64,000 bases of DNA from NCBI RefSeq assembly GCF_024448895.1, contig NZ_JAMOIC010000007.1, forward strand, positions 186,001-250,000, written 5' to 3'. This document shows positions 8,008 to 59,577 of the stretch, in pieces. Position 1 is the stretch's first letter, and each line of letters starts with the position of its first letter. A program made the position numbers and the translations under genes. The stretch is from Stutzerimonas stutzeri. Lineage in GTDB: Bacteria; Pseudomonadota; Gammaproteobacteria; Pseudomonadales; Pseudomonadaceae. Under the pieces are notes generated by a model. It was not told the DNA's origin. It searched no databases and worked only from the letters and a program-made list of their open reading frames with translations.

Positions 8008-8277
8008 TTAGCGACGCAGACCCAGACGACCGATCAGGGTGCTGTAACGAGTAGTGTCTTTGCCCTTCAGGTAATCCAGCAGCTTGCGGCGCTGGTTAAC
8101 CATACGGATCAGACCACGACGCGAGTGGTGATCTTTACCGTTGGCCTTGAAGTGACCTTGCAGCTTGTTGATGTTGGTGGTCAGCAGGGCAACCTGCACT
8201 TCCGGCGAACCGGTATCACCTTCAGCTTGCTGGTACTCGCTAACGATCTGAGCTTTTTCTTCAACGCTAAGTGCCAT
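8008..8277 (-). CDS. rpsO: 30S ribosomal protein S15
   Basis: An 89-residue protein with the full S15 sequence: the start [16 protein letters not shown], the conserved [14 protein letters not shown] block, HHSRRGL and the [12 protein letters not shown] helix. It binds the central domain of 16S rRNA early in 30S assembly. The start has a GGAGC-type ribosome site. It is flanked by truB and pnp in the standard order. The 118-bp leader upstream of the ATG would be the place for S15 autoregulation, but I could not identify a specific fold. Confidence 0.98.
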
Positions 8278-52116: not shown

Positions 52117-52521
52117 ATCACGCAGAAGGCCGATTGGGACCCAGCATCGTCTGGCAACTGGATAACAAGACCGGCTGCCGCCAAAGGGACAGGCCTGAAG
52201 GCTGTATCTGGTCAGAAGCTAATCGGCCCATGGCGCTAAGGGACCGTAGACCGTTCACGCAGAACGGTGGGCTGAAGCCCACCCTAACTGACTGATCGTC
52301 AGTCCCATCCCTTGTAGGAGCCAGCTTGCTGGCGATCTTTGTCGAGCGACTTAAAAGCCGTGCAATCATCCTGATTGCGAGCGAGCTCGCTCCTACGAAA
52401 AGCAGCCTGTGAGTGCCGTTCCCTGAAGGCTGTACTGACAAGAAGGTAATCGGCCGCACGGCGCCCAAGGGGCCGTGAATCGTCCACGCAGAACGGTGGG
52501 CTGAAGCCCACCCCACCTGAC

Positions 52522-52557
52522 TACGGCTGGTATCTGCAGTTCTGTGGTTGGAGTTGA
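52522..52557 (+). repeat. Decayed copy of the ftrD 3' end
   Basis: Matches 51352-51387 (the last 11 codons and stop of ftrD) at 33 of 36 bases. It would read YGWYLQFCGWS-stop against YGWYLQFWGWS-stop. Displaced by 1170 bp, with elaA in between. Confidence 0.9.
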
Positions 52558-52664
52558 TCGTCAGTGCTACCCCTGTAGGAGCCAGCTTGCTGGCGATCTT
52601 TGTTCAGCGACTTAAGAGCCGTGCAAGCACCCTGATCGCGAGCAAGCTCGCTCCTACGAAAAGC

Positions 52665-52696
52665 CCGCAATGCCGCAATGCCGCAATGCCGCAATG
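52665..52696 (+). repeat. Tandem octamer CCGCAATG, four copies
   Basis: Four perfect head-to-tail copies of CCGCAATG directly after REP unit B and 13 bp before the nrdG stop. Confidence 0.95.
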
Positions 52697-52709
52697 ACGA
52701 CCTTCTCCC

Positions 52710-53405
52710 TTACCCCCGCAGCACGAACGACGGAAACAGGCGCCCCATCCGGTCCCACAGCTTCTGCTGGTCATACGGCGGACGGCTATCGGCAAGGGAA
52801 TCGTCGAGCATTCGAGCGGTGCGCACGCATTGCACGGCAAAGCGTTCGACACCCAGAGCACGCAGCCGCTGAGCCATGTCCCAGAGTCGGTCGGCATCGA
52901 ACAGCTGCCAGTGCACCGTGGTTCTGCATTCGTGGGCAACGTTGCTTTCCAGCAGGTGCTCAAGGCTTTCCCAGTTGGCCTTGCCGCTGCCCTCGACACC
53001 AGTGATCAGCGTGCTGTGCTCGGGCAATGCCTTGATATCGAAGCCCACCCAATCCACCAGCGGTAGCACCTGATTGAACAGTCTGGGCTTGATCCCGGCG
53101 CTGTGCAGTCCGATCTTGAAGCCCATCGCGCGGACTTCTGCGATCGCCTCGGGTAGCGCCAGCTGCAGGGTCGGCTCGCCGCCGCTGAAGACAACCGCCT
53201 CCAGCAACCCGACCCGCTCTCGCAGAAAGCACAGAATGTCTTCCCAAGGCTTTTCCTGCTCACCGCAGGCCGGGATCAGTCCTGGATTGTGGCAATAGCG
53301 ACAGCGCCAACCGCAGCCCTGGCAGAACAGCACGCAGGCCAGATGATCGGGAAAATCCAGTGTGGTCAGGGGGACTAGCCCCCCGACCCTCAGTCTCGCG
53401 TTCAC
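52710..53405 (-). CDS. nrdG: Class III RNR activase NrdG (radical SAM)
   Basis: A 231-residue radical-SAM enzyme that installs the glycyl radical on the anaerobic ribonucleotide reductase. FeS motif CQGCGWRCRYCHN contains CX3CX2C, then VVFSGGEPTLQ and the C-terminal SAM-binding strands. Start is a GTG at 53405 that overlaps the stop of the small radical-domain ORF (GTGA), so the two are translationally coupled. Confidence 0.95.
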   Translation of the reverse strand: MNARLRVGGLVPLTTLDFPDHLACVLFCQGCGWRCRYCHNPGLIPACGEQEKPWEDILCFLRERVGLLEAVVFSGGEPTLQLALPEAIAEVRAMGFKIGLHSAGIKPRLFNQVLPLVDWVGFDIKALPEHSTLITGVEGSGKANWESLEHLLESNVAHECRTTVHWQLFDADRLWDMAQRLRALGVERFAVQCVRTARMLDDSLADSRPPYDQQKLWDRMGRLFPSFVLRG

Positions 53406-53569
53406 GCAACGCTTACCCGCGCCGCCTGTTCGGTGAAATGCGTGCGCTCCCGATGCTCCGACTGTTTGCCGGGATTGAAGGCGGTAACCGGGCGGTGATA
53501 GCCCATGACGCGAGTCCAGACTTCACAGCGCTGGCGTTGGGCTTCGGGTAGTTGAGTGGCTTGGGTCAT
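53402..53569 (-). CDS. Small stand-alone glycyl-radical domain of NrdD
   Basis: A 55-residue ORF with a strong AAGGAG before its ATG. The central part RVMGYHRPVTAFNPGKQSEH matches the C-terminal radical loop of E. coli NrdD (RVCGYLGSP...RPFNAGKQEE), and Gly23 aligns with the radical glycine. The large NrdD upstream ends at its zinc site and lacks this motif. So the radical glycine would be supplied in trans, comparable in concept to GrcA/YfiD for pyruvate formate-lyase. Homology is from motif comparison by eye; function is inference. Confidence 0.8.
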   Translation of the reverse strand: MTQATQLPEAQRQRCEVWTRVMGYHRPVTAFNPGKQSEHRERTHFTEQAARVSVA

Positions 53570-53639
53570 GTGTCGCTCCTTCAGTAGTGGATGGTTTGTT
53601 GTAGGGGCTAGGGTCGATGCGTCGGCTGACGCATCAGGT

Positions 53640-53664
53640 GATCGCCAGCAAGCTGGCTCCTACA
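53640..53664. repeat. REP half-site between nrdD and the radical-domain ORF
   Basis: GATCGCCAGCAAGCTGGCTCCTACA, the reverse complement of the REP arm at 52313 and 52574. It lies in the 154-bp gap between nrdD and the small ORF. Confidence 0.85.
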
Positions 53665-53723
53665 GGTTGGTCCTTGTGCATCTATGCCGCAGCGCGCAAC
53701 CGAGGCGCCCCAGCCCCACTGAC

Positions 53724-55730
53724 TTAGGCGCAGCAGCTTTGTTGCTTGGCGATAAGCACCTCGTCGCATTTCGGGCAGAACTCGTGTTCGCCGCTCAGGT
53801 AGCCGTGCACCGGGCAGATGGAAAACGTCGGGGTAATGGTCAGGTAAGGCAGGCGGAACCGGCCGAGTGCTTTGCGAACCAGGTTCTTGCAGGCCTGCGC
53901 CGAGGAGATCTGCTCGGCCATGTACAGGTGCAACACCGTGCCGCCGGTGTACTTGGTCTGCAGCTCGTCCTGTAGCGCCAGTGCTTCGAAGGGATCGTCG
54001 GTAAAGCCAACCGGAAGCTGCGAGGAATTGGTGTAGTACGGCGCGTCCGCTGATCCGGCCTGAAGAATGTCCGGGAAGCGTTTGCGGTCCTCTTTGGCGA
54101 ATCGGTAGGTCGTGCCTTCGGCGGGCGTCGCTTCGAGGTTGTAGAGGTGGCCGGTCTCTTCCTGAAAGCGCACCAGCACCGCGCGAACATGATCGAGCAG
54201 CTCGATGGCCATGGCGCGGCCTGCCGGCGTGTGAATCCCCTCGGCATCTTCGGTGAGGTTGCGGACCATCTCGTGCAGACCATTCACACCGATGGTGGAG
54301 AAATGGTTGCGCAGCGTGCCGAGGTAGCGCTTGGTGTAGGGATAGAGCCCGGCATCCATGTGATGCTGGATCACCTTGCGCTTGACCTCGAGGCTTTGCA
54401 TCGCCATCTCGAGCAGTGCATCGAGATGCTCGAAGAGCCCCTTGCGATCACCCTGATGCAGATAGCCCAGCCGCGCGCAGTTGATGGTCACCACGCCCAG
54501 CGATCCGGTCTGCTCAGCGGACCCGAACAAGCCGCCGCCACGCTTGAGCAGCTCGCGCACGTCCAGCTGCAGCCGGCAGCACATCGAACGCACCTGGTTG
54601 GGCTGCATGTCCGAGTTGAGAAAGTTCTGGAAGTACGGCAGACCGTAGCGCGCCGTCATCTCGAACAAGCGGTCAGCGTTTTCGCTATCCCAGGGGAAAT
54701 CGTGAGTGATGTTGTAAGTCGGGATCGGAAACGTGAAAACCCGGCCCAGCCCGTCGCCCGCCTGCATCACTTCGATATACGCACGGTTGATCAGCTCCAT
54801 CTCGGCCTGCAGGTCGCCATAGGCGAACGGCATCTCTTCGCCGCCGATGTACGGAATCTGCTCGCGCAGGTCTTCCGGGCAGACCCAATCGAAAGTCAGG
54901 TTGGTGAACGGCGTCTGCGTGCCCCAGCGCGACGGCACGTTGAGGTTGTAGATGAATTCCTGAATGGCCTGGCGAATCTCGGCAAAGCCCAGGTTGTCCT
55001 TGCGCACGAACGGTGCGAGGTAGGTGTCGAAGGAGCTGAACGCCTGAGCGCCGGCCCACTCGTTCTGCAGCGTGCCAAGAAAGTTGACCATCTGCCCCAA
55101 GGCGCTCGACAGATGCCTGGGTGGCCCTGCCTCGACGCGTCCTGGAATTCCGTTGAAGCCTTCATTGAGCAAGGTACGCAGCGACCAGCCGGCGCAGTAG
55201 CCGGCCAGCATGTCCAGATCATGGATATGCAGGTCGCCTTCGCGGTGCGCCGTGCCAATCTCCGGGCTGTAGACCTCATCCAGCCAGTAGTTGGCCGTGA
55301 CCTTGCCCGAAACGTTGAGGATCAGCCCGCCGAGCGAATAGCCCTGATTGGCGTTGGCACGCACGCGCCAGTCCTCGCGGGAAAGGTATTCGTTCATCGA
55401 TGAGGCGACATCGACGATCGCCTTGTGGTCGCGGCGCAGCCGGCCATGCTGCTCACGGTAGACGATATAGGCCCGTGCAGTCCCGTAATGGCCAGCCTCC
55501 ATCAAGACACGCTCAACCGCATCCTGAGCCTGTTCCACCTCCACTACCCGCTGCGTCAGGCGTGTCAGTACATGAGCGGCCAGCGTCTGGGCCGTGACCT
55601 GATCGAGCTCGCCTGTGGCCAGGCCGGCAGCCTCGATGGCGGCGCCAATCTTTTCCAGCTCGAAGGGCACCAGACGCCCATCCCGCTTGCGCAACGACAC
55701 CGGTCGATTAACTTGATCAAGCCCCAGCAT
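53724..55730 (-). CDS. nrdD: Anaerobic ribonucleoside-triphosphate reductase, large part
   Basis: A 668-residue protein. Converts NTPs to dNTPs without oxygen. ATP cone at the N-terminus (SLRKRDGRLVPFELEKIGAA), catalytic barrel with HIHDLDMLAGYCAGWSL, SRWGTQTPFTNL and SMCCRLQLD, and a C-terminal zinc site CPVHGYLSGEHEFCPKC. It stops about ten residues after the zinc site, with no RVxGY radical loop. Start at 55730 with GGAGGCGTA upstream; a longer upstream frame is not supported. Probably operonic with the radical-domain ORF and nrdG. Confidence 0.96.
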   Translation of the reverse strand: MLGLDQVNRPVSLRKRDGRLVPFELEKIGAAIEAAGLATGELDQVTAQTLAAHVLTRLTQRVVEVEQAQDAVERVLMEAGHYGTARAYIVYREQHGRLRRDHKAIVDVASSMNEYLSREDWRVRANANQGYSLGGLILNVSGKVTANYWLDEVYSPEIGTAHREGDLHIHDLDMLAGYCAGWSLRTLLNEGFNGIPGRVEAGPPRHLSSALGQMVNFLGTLQNEWAGAQAFSSFDTYLAPFVRKDNLGFAEIRQAIQEFIYNLNVPSRWGTQTPFTNLTFDWVCPEDLREQIPYIGGEEMPFAYGDLQAEMELINRAYIEVMQAGDGLGRVFTFPIPTYNITHDFPWDSENADRLFEMTARYGLPYFQNFLNSDMQPNQVRSMCCRLQLDVRELLKRGGGLFGSAEQTGSLGVVTINCARLGYLHQGDRKGLFEHLDALLEMAMQSLEVKRKVIQHHMDAGLYPYTKRYLGTLRNHFSTIGVNGLHEMVRNLTEDAEGIHTPAGRAMAIELLDHVRAVLVRFQEETGHLYNLEATPAEGTTYRFAKEDRKRFPDILQAGSADAPYYTNSSQLPVGFTDDPFEALALQDELQTKYTGGTVLHLYMAEQISSAQACKNLVRKALGRFRLPYLTITPTFSICPVHGYLSGEHEFCPKCDEVLIAKQQSCCA

Positions 55731-55741
55731 TACGCCTCCAT

Positions 55742-55786
55742 CACCATATGTAGTTAAAACAGACTGGTTAAACACAAGATGATGGG
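55742..55786 (-). promoter_or_regulatory. Two phased NrdR-like boxes upstream of nrdD
   Basis: CACCATATGTAGTT at 55742-55755 and CACAAGATGATGGG at 55773-55786 start exactly 31 bp apart, the helical phasing of NrdR box pairs. Against CACWATATWTWGTG they match 11 and 10 of 14 positions. NrdR represses nrd genes when dNTP is sufficient. Confidence 0.6.
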
Positions 55787-55815
55787 GAATGTAGGCAATT
55801 GCGGCAGAGAACGAA

Positions 55816-55829
55816 TTGACCATCGTCAA
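55816..55829. promoter_or_regulatory. ANR/DNR-type box between nrdD and dnr
   Basis: TTGACCATCGTCAA inside a longer perfect palindrome GAATTGAC CATC GTCAATTC. It fits the FNR-family form TTGAY-N4-RTCAA. Centred about 41 bp from a TACATT -10-like hexamer (minus strand 55788-55793) toward nrdD. Confidence 0.7.
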
Positions 55830-55965
55830 TTCGACCCGGATGTATTTCAAAGGACGCGGCAAGCGGCGGTGGCCGGCAATCTTGTCCGTGATCAAGGAGG
55901 CAGGTGGACGCGTGCTTCTAGGATGCAATCTCGAACAATCCCGGACGCGTACCGGTGGAGGAAAC

Positions 55966-56643
55966 ATGCTGACCGAAACATCCCTCGTTGCGGACCTTCG
56001 CCGGCACCACCTGTTCAGCCGGCTACCCGAGGCGGCGCTGCAGGAAGTGTGCACCTCCGCCAATCTCAAGCGACTACCTGCTGGCGCCTCGCTGTTTCAT
56101 CAAGGCGACAAAGCCGAGCGTTTCTACTTTCTCTTCAGCGGCCAGGTGAAATTGCATCGGGTGGTCTGCGATGGCCAGGAAAAACTGGTAGAGGTCATCC
56201 GGGCTGGCGAATCCTTCGCCGAAGCCTTGCTGTTCACCGGCGCGCCGAACTATCCCGTCAGTGCCACGGCGCTCAAGGCCAGCCTCGTCGCCAGCCTCAA
56301 CGGCCCGCACTACCGACGCATGCTCGAACAGCACCCGAGCATCTGCCTGGACATACTCGGCACCCTGAGCATCCGCCTGCATCAGCGCCTGAACGAGATC
56401 GACACCCTGACACTGGCCAACGCCAGCCATCGTGTGGTGCGCTTTCTCTACCAGTCGCAGGAGGACGACAGCGGCGTGGTGACTCTTGATGTACCCAAGC
56501 GTTTGATCGCCTCCAAGCTGGGCATCCAGCCGGAGACCTTTTCGCGCATCCTGCACCGCCTGATCGAGTCGGGAATGATCAGCGTGCAGCGACGACGCAT
56601 CGAGATTCTCGACAGCCGGGGCCTCGCCGCCTATCACGATTGA
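55966..56643 (+). CDS. Crp/Fnr regulator, Dnr type (probably DnrS)
   Basis: A 225-residue protein: cyclic-nucleotide-like sensor domain (FHQGDKAERFYFLFSGQVKLHR as landmark), dimer helix with SIRLHQRLNEIDTL, and winged-helix with LIASKLGIQPETFSRILHRL. The N-terminal cysteine cluster of FNR/ANR is absent, so it is a haem/NO-sensing type rather than an Fe-S oxygen sensor. About half identical to the Dnr gene at the end of the window. P. stutzeri has several such paralogues (DnrD, DnrE, DnrS); its position by nrdD suggests DnrS, from memory. Confidence 0.88.
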   Translation: MLTETSLVADLRRHHLFSRLPEAALQEVCTSANLKRLPAGASLFHQGDKAERFYFLFSGQVKLHRVVCDGQEKLVEVIRAGESFAEALLFTGAPNYPVSATALKASLVASLNGPHYRRMLEQHPSICLDILGTLSIRLHQRLNEIDTLTLANASHRVVRFLYQSQEDDSGVVTLDVPKRLIASKLGIQPETFSRILHRLIESGMISVQRRRIEILDSRGLAAYHD

Positions 56644-57179: not shown

Positions 57180-57674
57180 TCACGCGTTCGCCGGCTGCGC
57201 ACGGCCGGCTTGAGCCACCTCTTCCCCAGCGCCTTGCAGTAGCTTCCACAGCCACGGCGGCAGCATGTCCGGGTCCAGGCTGTCGATCAGGTTCTTGATT
57301 GCCAGGCCCAGTTCAGTGTCGCCTTCGATCACCAGCCGTCGCCGGAAGAACAAGGTGTCCGGGTCCTCCTGACGGCTGGCGAGCAGCAGAAATTCCCGCC
57401 AGTTGCCGCGTATGGTCACCTGCACGGCGGCCTGCTCGGTGATGCGCAGTTTCTGACGGTCGCACGTCAGGCACCAGGCGAGCTTAAGATCGGCGACTTC
57501 GAGCCGCATCCAGTTACCTTCAAGCGCCTCGAACGCCCCCTCGGCCAGCGGCTCCGCAAAGACTTGATTGAGGCTGCGCTCGAGCGCAATGCGTTGCAGC
57601 AGAAACGGCGTTCGCGCCGCCAGCGGCAGCAGATGCTCGCTCAGCTTTAGGAGGTGTGCACGGGGCTTCAGCAT
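57180..57674 (-). CDS. ubiT: Anaerobic ubiquinone accessory factor UbiT
   Basis: A 164-residue protein with an SCP2 lipid-binding domain (YhbT): LRITEQAAVQVTIRGNWREF and RRRLVIEGDTELGLAIKNLI (landmarks). UbiT binds ubiquinone precursors in the O2-independent pathway. The ATG at 57674 overlaps the ubiV end by 7 bp; third gene of ubiU-ubiV-ubiT. Confidence 0.93.
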   Translation of the reverse strand: MLKPRAHLLKLSEHLLPLAARTPFLLQRIALERSLNQVFAEPLAEGAFEALEGNWMRLEVADLKLAWCLTCDRQKLRITEQAAVQVTIRGNWREFLLLASRQEDPDTLFFRRRLVIEGDTELGLAIKNLIDSLDPDMLPPWLWKLLQGAGEEVAQAGRAQPANA

Positions 57675-58558
57675 AATCCGGCCTCCTCGGCACGCAGCAT
57701 CCCAGGCTGGCCGTGCCAGTAGCCGTTGCAACCGTCCACGGCGAGCGGCGGCAGACCGCCATTGCGAACCGCGTCGAATGCCTGCACGACCTCGATCATG
57801 CCCGATGCGCGCGGGCTCAAACGCAGCAGGTCGGCACCACTGTCCACCAGGGCAGGATAATCAGCCAGCAGGTTACTAACCGAAGCCGACATGGTCTGGA
57901 TGCCATTGATAGTGAACAGCGCCTCGCCTTCCTGGCTCAGCAGCGGGATGCCTTCTGGGTAGTTTTGGCAGCAGAACTGGCAATCATCCTTTGGCCGATT
58001 CTCCGCACGGGCCGTGAAGCAGCGGGCCGAATAGGCCAGCGGCAGATGACCGTAGGCAAATATCTCGATCTCCGGCATCGCGACACCCAGCTGGGACAGC
58101 TGCTCGCGGGCGCTGCTGATCATCGCTCCGGAAATTTCCACCGGCGGCACCCAGCGCCGCATGCCGCTGTTGACCAATTCAGCCAGCGCATAGCCGTTGT
58201 AGAGATTCAGTGCCGGGCCACCGACAAAGGGCAATCGCTTCTCGGACAGGTACTGCACGGCGCCCATGTCATTGGCTTCTACCAGCAGCTCACCGTTGTC
58301 GCAGAGCCGCCGCAGGCTGGATAGCTCGGACGCGGCCTCGACCAGCGTCAGGCCGGACAGCACCAATTCGGCGCTCGACTGCTGCGCCAGCTCGCGCGCC
58401 AGCCCGAGCCAGTCGTCCAAACCCATGTCACGCCGCTTGGAGCAGACGGTTTCGCCGAGATAGATGACATCCAGCGACATGCCCACCATGTCGGCGTAGA
58501 AGTCCAATGTTTGCTGGCGATCCCAGTAAAACAGCACGGGCCCGAGGCTGAGCTTCAT
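57668..58558 (-). CDS. ubiV: O2-independent ubiquinone hydroxylase subunit UbiV
   Basis: A 296-residue peptidase-U32-like protein. Cysteines at 39, 180, 193 and 197 (TVCSKRR; ARCFTAR; DDCQFCCQNYPEG) coincide with the four 4Fe-4S ligands known for E. coli UbiV. With UbiU it hydroxylates the ubiquinone ring using prephenate instead of O2. 23 bp after ubiU. Confidence 0.94.
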   Translation of the reverse strand: MKLSLGPVLFYWDRQQTLDFYADMVGMSLDVIYLGETVCSKRRDMGLDDWLGLARELAQQSSAELVLSGLTLVEAASELSSLRRLCDNGELLVEANDMGAVQYLSEKRLPFVGGPALNLYNGYALAELVNSGMRRWVPPVEISGAMISSAREQLSQLGVAMPEIEIFAYGHLPLAYSARCFTARAENRPKDDCQFCCQNYPEGIPLLSQEGEALFTINGIQTMSASVSNLLADYPALVDSGADLLRLSPRASGMIEVVQAFDAVRNGGLPPLAVDGCNGYWHGQPGMLRAEEAGLC

Positions 58559-58581
58559 GATTGATTCCTTGCAGAAGTGAG

Positions 58582-59577
58582 TTACTGCCACGCGCGGTGG
58601 TAGGCGCCGAGAGTCGTTTGCGAGCCTTCCGAGAGTCCGTCAAGCACCTCGCGCCAGCCAGGCTGCACGGCATAACGCTGGGGCGCCCGCAGGTAGGCAT
58701 CCAGCGCTGATCGCCAGACGCGGGTGACCTGCTCGACGTACGCCGGGCTGCGCTGCCGGCCTTCAATCTTCATGGCGGTCACACCAATGCTGGCAAGCTC
58801 GGGGATCAGGTCCAGGGTATTGAGGCTGGTGGGTTCTTCCAGCGCATGAAAGCGTTGGCCATTGACCATGAAGCGACCCTTGCACAAGGTCGGGTAGCCG
58901 GCAGACTCGCCCTCGGCGTAGCGGTCGATCAGCACATTGTTCAACCGCGAGGTCAGGCCCTCGGGCTCCTCGCTCCAACGCACCGCCTTGGCCGGGGAGC
59001 ACACGCCACAGAGGTTCGGCGATTCGCCTGTGAGGTAGGAGGATAGGTGGCAACGTCCTTCGGCCATGATGCACAGGCTGCCGAACGCGAAGACTTCGAT
59101 GGGCACCGGGCTGCCGGCAGCCACCTGTTTGACCTGCTTGAGCGACAGCACCCGCGGCAGCACTGCGCGTTTGATGTTGTAGCGCTGCTGATAGAAGGCC
59201 AACGCGGCGGCATTGGTCGCCGACCCCTGAACTGAAAGGTGCAGATTCAGTTGCGGGTGACGCTTGGCCGCGTAACCGAGCACGCCGGGATCAGCCGCGA
59301 TCAATGCATCGACGCCCAGGTCGGCCGCCTGATCCACCGAGCGCTGCCAGCGCGCCCACCCCTCCGGCTGGGCATAGGTATTGACGGCGATATAGAGCTG
59401 ACGACCTTTCTCGCGGATCAGTTGCAGCCCCTTGTCGAGCTGCTTGGCATCCATGTTGAGGCCGGCAAAATGACGGGCATTGGTGTCGTCGCGAAATCCG
59501 ACATAAACCGCGTCGGCACCCTGCTGAACGGCAGCCTTGAGCGCGGGCAGGCTACCTGCTGGACAAACCAAGTGCAT
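58582..59577 (-). CDS. ubiU: O2-independent ubiquinone hydroxylase subunit UbiU
   Basis: A 331-residue peptidase-U32-like protein. Cysteines 169, 176, 193 and 232 (GSLCIMAEGRC; CGVCSPAKAVRW; TLCKGRF) match the 4Fe-4S ligands of E. coli UbiU. Partner of UbiV. First gene of the unit, downstream of a Dnr-type box, which fits expression under denitrifying conditions. Confidence 0.95.
   Translation of the reverse strand: MHLVCPAGSLPALKAAVQQGADAVYVGFRDDTNARHFAGLNMDAKQLDKGLQLIREKGRQLYIAVNTYAQPEGWARWQRSVDQAADLGVDALIAADPGVLGYAAKRHPQLNLHLSVQGSATNAAALAFYQQRYNIKRAVLPRVLSLKQVKQVAAGSPVPIEVFAFGSLCIMAEGRCHLSSYLTGESPNLCGVCSPAKAVRWSEEPEGLTSRLNNVLIDRYAEGESAGYPTLCKGRFMVNGQRFHALEEPTSLNTLDLIPELASIGVTAMKIEGRQRSPAYVEQVTRVWRSALDAYLRAPQRYAVQPGWREVLDGLSEGSQTTLGAYHRAWQ

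Follow-up and report, generated by a model that had tools for sequence, protein, structure and literature searches.

Glycyl-radical enzymes are known to bear their radical domain at the tail end of one and the same polypeptide, and this tail must flip out for activation. In ribonucleotide reductase (RNR) phylogenies the domain is described as the C-terminal part of the class III chain (PMC9531940, PMC9669993). For another enzyme of this kind, pyruvate formate-lyase (PFL), spare-part proteins are known both from the host (YfiD/GrcA) and from phage (T4 Y06I), and the same source suggests that spare parts for glycyl-radical enzymes beyond PFL are possible and raises the question (PMC8683613). Here we describe an anaerobic RNR locus of Stutzerimonas stutzeri in a 64,000-nucleotide stretch of DNA (assembly GCF_024448895.1, contig NZ_JAMOIC010000007.1, positions 186,001 to 250,000), hereafter called the window, in which the catalytic chain NrdD ends before its radical loop and a small open reading frame (ORF) between nrdD and nrdG carries that loop instead. 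Judged from its sequence, the enzyme is a two-chain variant of class III RNR and not a standard member, because the radical loop lies on a separate ORF of 55 residues. As a rule, the NrdDs of a large subfamily are split in this way, and the radical-bearing portion of an essential enzyme has the look of a spare part that can be replaced. The parts of the locus, in window coordinates, are as follows.

53724..55730, minus strand: NrdD large (catalytic) chain, 668 residues from ATG; ORF with PF13597 and PF03477 matches
55443..55691, minus strand: ATP-cone region of NrdD, residues 14-96 (PF03477, E 3e-20; coordinates from residue numbers)
54576..54584, minus strand: finger-loop MCC motif (Met383-Cys384-Cys385), double-cysteine class
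53763..53816, minus strand: zinc-finger segment CPVHGYLSGEHEFCPKCD, with C639, H642, C652 and C655; contains Gly643
53570..53723, no strand assigned: spacer of 154 nucleotides from the NrdD stop to the small-ORF start; holds a REP-like (repetitive extragenic palindromic) palindrome at 53642-53663
53576..53581, minus strand: Shine-Dalgarno sequence AAGGAG of the small ORF, 6 nucleotides from its ATG
53402..53569, minus strand: stand-alone glycyl-radical-domain protein of NrdD, 55 residues, ATG start (PF13597 positions 531-562)
53501..53503, minus strand: codon of Gly23, the predicted radical glycine (RVMGY)
52710..53405, minus strand: nrdG, radical-SAM activase of the NrdG2 type, 231 residues, GTG start (TIGR02495, 210 bits, cut-off 131)

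The large chain matches NF006126/PRK08270 at 1128 bits over profile positions 4-649 of 684, and its residues 126-656 form the NRDD core. A first-pass annotation of this DNA had proposed that the chain has an ATP cone and a zinc site and ends after the latter without an RVxGY motif. The ORF and its Pfam matches agree: the predicted zinc site reads C-x2-H-x9-C-x2-C at residues 639-655, and the chain stops 13 residues past it, without the RVxGY loop. The Pfam family NRDD, 562 positions long, is itself divided between the two products, with positions 2-528 on the large chain (580 bits) and 531-562 on the small ORF (34.6 bits, cut-off 26.2), whose sequence is RVMGYHRPVTAFNPGKQSEH. Two further features read off at first pass were found as described, namely that the small ORF has its own Shine-Dalgarno sequence and that it overlaps nrdG, the GTGA at 53402-53405 serving as its last four nucleotides and the first four of nrdG. 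Across the 5.39-Mb genome no other PF13597 match was found, which makes this NrdD the sole one there; PF02867, which covers the catalytic chains of the remaining RNR classes, has two matches in the same genome. Searched on its own, the small protein matched no solved structure at E 1.

Sampling of related genomes allowed us to ask how regularly the two pieces occur together. All 147 sampled genomes with a radical-less NrdD also show the small ORF, a number that remains after removing double counts across samples drawn from the genus, family, order, class and phylum; in 138 of them the ORF is a printed match or stands in a fetched locus, and in the other 9, all of them family members from other genera, it is known by match count alone. 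In the genus, NRDD is found in 45 of 56 genomes searched (that of the window included), and all 45 show both pieces. The family sample has 100 matching genomes out of 248 (99 split and one contig-end fragment), the order sample 35 out of 244 (21 split, 14 one-chain), the class sample 37 out of 370 (29 split, 6 one-chain, 2 weak or partial) and the phylum sample 54 out of 348 (12 split, 41 one-chain, 1 weak), and every split genome of the last three samples has the small ORF. The contig-end NrdD fragment (G129) and the weak or partial matches (G636, G694, G1103) stand outside the 147. G097 and G105 are included although their NrdD is incomplete or broken over contigs, and G1005, from the phylum sample, was classified by reading its locus. 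The small matches of G603 and G641 fall under the family cut-off, and G624 reaches it only when the in-frame neighbours of its match are counted in; the ORF of these genomes is covered by loci L074, L065 and L066, where it is visible. Some metagenome-assembled genomes labelled Chloroflexota, Omnitrophota or Micrococcales (L179, L146, L159) have loci of proteobacterial type and may have been binned wrongly.

The same picture is obtained from individual loci and chains. Among the best 80 of 581 genome-contig loci, the small ORF lies beside the large chain in 75, four are one-chain (L139, L154, L171 and L159, a partial contig) and the last, L175, is a lone copy from a genome that has a complete split set besides. 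The first-pass annotation had seen no radical-glycine motif in the window's large chain; likewise, no radical loop was found in 147 of the 154 subfamily large chains with a readable C-terminus, the remaining seven being one-chain forms that bear the loop themselves. The MCC motif is present in 154 of 155 subfamily chains (exception L117, a partial contig) and the zinc-segment pattern in 153 of 155, the exceptions being a variant in L046 and a segment in another frame in L100, a Bradyrhizobium plasmid locus whose NrdD match runs in two frames and whose C-terminus is unreadable; L114, L117 and L157 are the partial chains of this set. A double-cysteine finger-loop class (MCCR) has been described, and its N. 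bacilliformis member (SCCR) draws electrons from thioredoxin (PMC9669993). From the co-occurrence we infer that the small protein completes the larger enzyme. Two loci of this survey are of separate note: G048 carries, besides its split set, an extra one-chain NrdD on a 0.9-Mb second contig (L011, G048:C2:132500-137500), and in G604 (L051:333-3396) the NrdD ORF is 1021 residues long with an insert of about 313 residues, intein-like as named by eye, which falls between the counterparts of window-chain residues 272 and 273, starts with CVDAETECLTDRGW and ends in TGN before T.

The small gene is under purifying selection. Over a 35-codon core, using unsaturated pairs only, the ratio of nonsynonymous to synonymous change (pN/pS) is 0.066 in the genus (58 pairs, 12 distinct sequences), 0.17 in a Pseudomonadaceae set, 0.30 in a wider set of loci from genomes and plasmids, and 0.41 in the copies from viruses. 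Thirteen positions are invariant in 29 diverse copies (alignment A1): R12, C15, R20, M22, G23, R26, P27, N32, G34, K35, E38, R42 and F45, the predicted radical glycine among them. With the co-occurrence in the genus, this selection and these invariant positions, the two-piece pattern is more than chance. Cys15, invariant in 29 of 29 A1 copies, is encoded at window 53525-53527.

Two adjacent ORFs might still yield a single chain if stop read-through, a frameshift, bypass or an intron joined them. In 8 of the 99 split family genomes (G070, G083, G085, G094, G159, G168, G188, G243) both pieces do share a frame with at least one stop between them, but the small ORF proved separate when those eight loci were read. 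We parsed 72 loci for a radical-domain ORF, three one-chain loci being excluded as unfit for the motif, and obtained 68 in which the ORF adjoins a split NrdD, one in which it is distant, two lone copies and one one-chain form. Across the 68 adjacent loci the small ORF starts in frame 0, 1 or 2 relative to NrdD nearly equally (23/24/21), at a spacing of -38 to 483 nucleotides (median 33), and encodes 48 to 76 residues, with ATG as every chosen start. A Shine-Dalgarno sequence (at least GGAG or AAGGA, 4-10 nucleotides from the start) precedes 63 of these 68 ORFs, an upper figure as starts were picked partly for it, against a background of 529 of 14058 ATGs with one in a similar window. In G1080 about 8.4 kb with ORFs on the opposite strand separates nrdD from the small gene and nrdG, which are found together upstream of it, and this excludes recoding or splicing in that genome. 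An Rfam search of 52500-56500 gave no match to an intron and none of any kind in the spacer, and a protein of 51 residues has been reported by digest-free mass spectrometry (PMC10433244). On the Rfam negative, the G1080 locus and the variety of frames and spacings we rejected the recoding or intron model, to which we give practically no credence. Apparent fusions in the genus (open frames of 743-792 residues in G011, G030 and G049) were likewise set aside, as their loci show separate stop-to-stop frames.

That mass-spectrometric report concerns S. stutzeri ATCC 14405, in which the 51-residue QOZ94689.1, named "oxygen-sensitive reductase", was detected only under O2 limitation, with 22 peptides and 113 peptide-spectrum matches in the digest-free data and 3 and 28 in the bottom-up data (PMC10433244). 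The small ORF is exactly 51 residues long in S. stutzeri 24a13, and ORFs of this length occur in five loci of the window genus, including L010 and L012. By length, name, species and condition, QOZ94689.1 supports that a separate small protein is made in cells.

Trees show how the split form relates to one-chain enzymes. In a 48-row tree most split NrdDs fall in one large group, within which nest L139, L154 and L171 (Maricaulis/Marinicaulis), each with both parts in one ORF; this tree was quick, and the forks that enclose the three are supported at 84-93 and not starred. A 156-row FastTree requires three changes of state, all three forced by starred branches. These three alphaproteobacterial NrdDs look like natural re-fusions, and since they join large and small parts in one ORF inside the split group, they argue that the two proteins work as one. 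The window's small protein is 71% identical over 45 residues to the C-terminus of one-chain L171. A single fission event is not proven, because the split L101 (Sulfuricurvum) pairs with one-chain L044 and the split L043 sits on a long branch, both outside the main split group.

A rival model is an old and simple gene fission, in which the small chain would be made 1:1, stay bound and never be exchanged, and the split would have no function. The gene order nrdD-small-nrdG, together with small-ORF starts that overlap the NrdD stop at 12 of 68 loci, suggests coupled synthesis, as that model would have it. Against it stand the place of the small gene away from nrdD in G1080, the additional copies in G729, G1181 and G1185 (in each case beside a split NrdD of their own), and the fact that all 80 fetched viral loci carry the gene alone. 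Because of this placement and these extra and lone copies, it is suggested that the small protein can act as a free part, and we consider a functionless fission doubtful.

We next consider which glycine bears the radical. Via L171, Gly23 of the small protein aligns with the G of RIVGY in the Thermotoga maritima NrdD 4coi, which counting back from the alignment end places at position 621; the glycyl radical site of that enzyme is Gly621 (PMC4493059). The claim made at first pass that the small-ORF motif corresponds to the radical loop of one-chain NrdD is borne out by this alignment of RVMGY with RIVGY, and Gly23 is the predicted radical glycine. The other candidate is the glycine of an HGY motif in the large chain (Gly643 here, Gly650 in Cupriavidus necator), with the small ORF as an accessory. 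In C. necator H16 the annotated large chain (676 residues, 76.19 kDa computed) is followed by a separate 66-residue ORF with RVMGY, annotated nrdD (pHG1), and the zinc-finger sequence CPTHGYLAGEHPFCPRC contains Gly650, the counterpart of Gly643. Siedow et al. (1999) reportedly observed loss of function when H16 NrdD carried the G650A mutation, from which they proposed that G650 bears the radical; we know of no other mutational assignment of the radical glycine in the subfamily. The HGY glycine is conserved in 153 of 154 readable chains, and Gly650 of the 76.19-kDa chain is the HGY glycine. However, this glycine lies within the zinc finger, where loss of a residue could likewise kill the enzyme, and it is also present in one-chain relatives that have RVxGY (L044, L046, L047, L048, L139). 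It is replaced by Asn in L074, whose small ORF retains RVMGY, and in the alignment the T. maritima radical-loop glycine finds its counterpart in RVMGY, not in HGY. We take Gly650 to be a structural residue and not the radical site, consider a radical on the large chain highly improbable, and suggest that the reported C. necator assignment be redone and corrected.

Very probably, then, the holoenzyme consists of the catalytic NrdD and a separately translated 55-residue radical-domain chain that is docked and exchangeable. The small protein would dock non-covalently next to the zinc finger of NrdD so that its RVMGY loop enters the barrel; NrdG would make the glycyl radical at Gly23, probably while the subunit is docked and flipped out, after which a finger-loop cysteine would receive the radical for nucleotide reduction. 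Once oxygen cuts the small protein at the radical glycine it could be replaced, because it is small and separate, and such exchange would spare the 668-residue chain in facultative anaerobes. Some points weigh against this two-chain holoenzyme. The C. necator mutant study is said to assign the radical to a large-chain glycine. QOZ94689.1 is tied to the small ORF by length, name, species and condition and not by sequence (PMC10433244). Lastly, the YfiD precedent speaks against activation of a free subunit, as YfiD was not activated unless a PFL variant was present (PMC8683613). For this last reason docking before activation is, by analogy, the likelier order. The first-pass annotation, which had the radical made on a diffusible subunit and then inserted, is thus upheld as to the separate protein and disfavored as to the sequence of events. 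Its analogy to GrcA fits in mechanism but not in sequence, since at E 0.1 the only Pfam match of the small protein is NRDD, with no radical-domain sequence of the GrcA/YfiD (PFL) type. Its proposal that a separate radical domain is the normal state is strongly supported by the co-occurrence, the dispersed locus, the re-fusions, the purifying selection and the length-matched detection.

Lone copies of the small gene also occur in viral and phage-like DNA. Searching viral contigs with the small-protein alignment (scan patterns RVMGY[HI]RP and FNxGK[QKR][SGA]E[HFY]) gave 246 relatives, and all of the best 80, which were retained (L183-L262), are lone, with neither an NrdD large chain nor NrdG in the stretch of contig covered. 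When 31 of these were searched as whole records, which may be fragments and none of which is known to be 90% complete, each gave one NRDD match within positions 513-562 (above the cut-off in 30 of 31), and NrdG2 was found in none of the 31 possibly fragmentary records. R[VC]MGY is present in 79 of 79 viral cores, partly by construction because the scan patterns contained the motif; one of the 80 cores did not fit the regular expression. Ten neighboring proteins from eight contigs gave six matches to portal, virion-structural, tail-fibre, tape-measure, DNA-polymerase or replication-initiation families, one to a phosphoesterase and three to nothing. All 29 members of A1, and all of 10 additional proteins (eight of these viral), are matched by profile positions 113-162 of PHROG 4132, a family annotated as of unknown function. 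Several phage copies (for example L194, L198, L205, L213, L214 and L232, with the ORF as read) have a Cys-rich stretch N-terminal to the radical domain. In bacterial genomes, G729 has, besides its own split NrdD, a second, lone radical-domain ORF (L041:2303-2578) in the vicinity of ORFs that by eye resemble RecT and SSB, and G437 has a lone copy (L030:2601-2798) in a phage-like stretch, its gene names likewise given by eye.

One possible hypothesis is that the radical subunit is a mobile, exchangeable protein cofactor, which uncultivated phages and prophages would carry on its own, with neither the NrdD core nor NrdG, and use during infection to repair, boost or take over a split host RNR; on the sequences at hand we regard the case for and against it as evenly balanced. 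The sole NrdD of G437 is one-chain, which speaks against a phage spare part, and unless it is a relic the G437 copy would not fit the partner model. Isolated phages also speak against it, as no close lone copy was found among them: in INPHARED, a tblastn search with the window protein gave five weak matches below 50% identity (three annotated as anaerobic RNR, two in unannotated records), and a viral copy as query gave none at E 0.01. If true, no earlier spare part of an RNR would be known, and PHROG 4132 would gain a function that is testable.

The surroundings of the locus offer several further observations. A Crp/Fnr-type regulator ORF lies divergent from nrdD, with UbiT- and UbiV-like ORFs beyond (55816-56643 and 57180-58591; named by eye); UbiT and UbiV act in oxygen-independent ubiquinone synthesis. 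In L039, similar ORFs are situated between nrdG and nrdD. A scan of the whole window for FNR/Dnr-type boxes with the consensus TTGATNNNNATCAA, allowing up to two mismatches, gave 42 against 16.3 expected, a number reached in 0 of 100 shuffles. Two of these boxes lie 5′ of nrdD (55816 and 55882), with two mismatches each, and are not convincing alone. The core of the REP-like palindrome in the spacer is also found at 8223, 52322 and 52583 of the window. A structured RNA in the spacer between nrdD and the small ORF was considered and rejected, since the fold of 53560-53760 has z = -1.2 and 24 of 200 shuffles are as stable.

The small protein is already in databases by name, as for nrdD on pHG1. 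A 2008 survey tabulated group23 (pfam-B_49955), 22 conserved mini-proteins from Bacteroidetes and alpha-, beta-, epsilon- and gammaproteobacteria labelled oxygen-sensitive ribonucleoside-triphosphate reductase or hypothetical (PMC2602986). There group23 is listed in a table, and its name and range point to identity with the small-protein family; the small protein is thus probably in that table, and its expression is probably already published. A search of the open literature, with most subscription journals outside its reach and papers represented in part, returned no description of an NrdD whose radical domain is on a separate chain, nor of the breadth of the split or of phage copies. The split concerns anaerobic DNA-precursor supply in a broad set of proteobacteria and bears on the question of spare parts beyond PFL (PMC8683613). 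A naturally separate radical domain would also allow activation, docking and radical transfer to be studied as distinct steps.

Compared with one-chain NrdD (T. maritima 4coi/4u3e, P. copri 8p23, T4 1h78), the core, zinc segment and radical loop are the same, and 4coi aligns along the natural fusion L171 with RVMGY/RIVGY included; the difference is that the window's chain terminates after the zinc site and the loop is the product of another gene. YfiD/GrcA and T4 Y06I are likewise small stand-alone glycyl-radical domains that serve a large enzyme without a working one (PMC8683613). Unlike the split NrdD large chain, which never has a radical domain, the enzyme that YfiD repairs has its own, and the small protein, with 55 residues against about 14 kDa for YfiD, would serve an RNR and not PFL. 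In the same bacterial group, Pseudomonas NrdJa/NrdJb is also an RNR on two polypeptides (PMC9669993, PMC4860495), but it belongs to class II, whereas the split NrdD is of class III.

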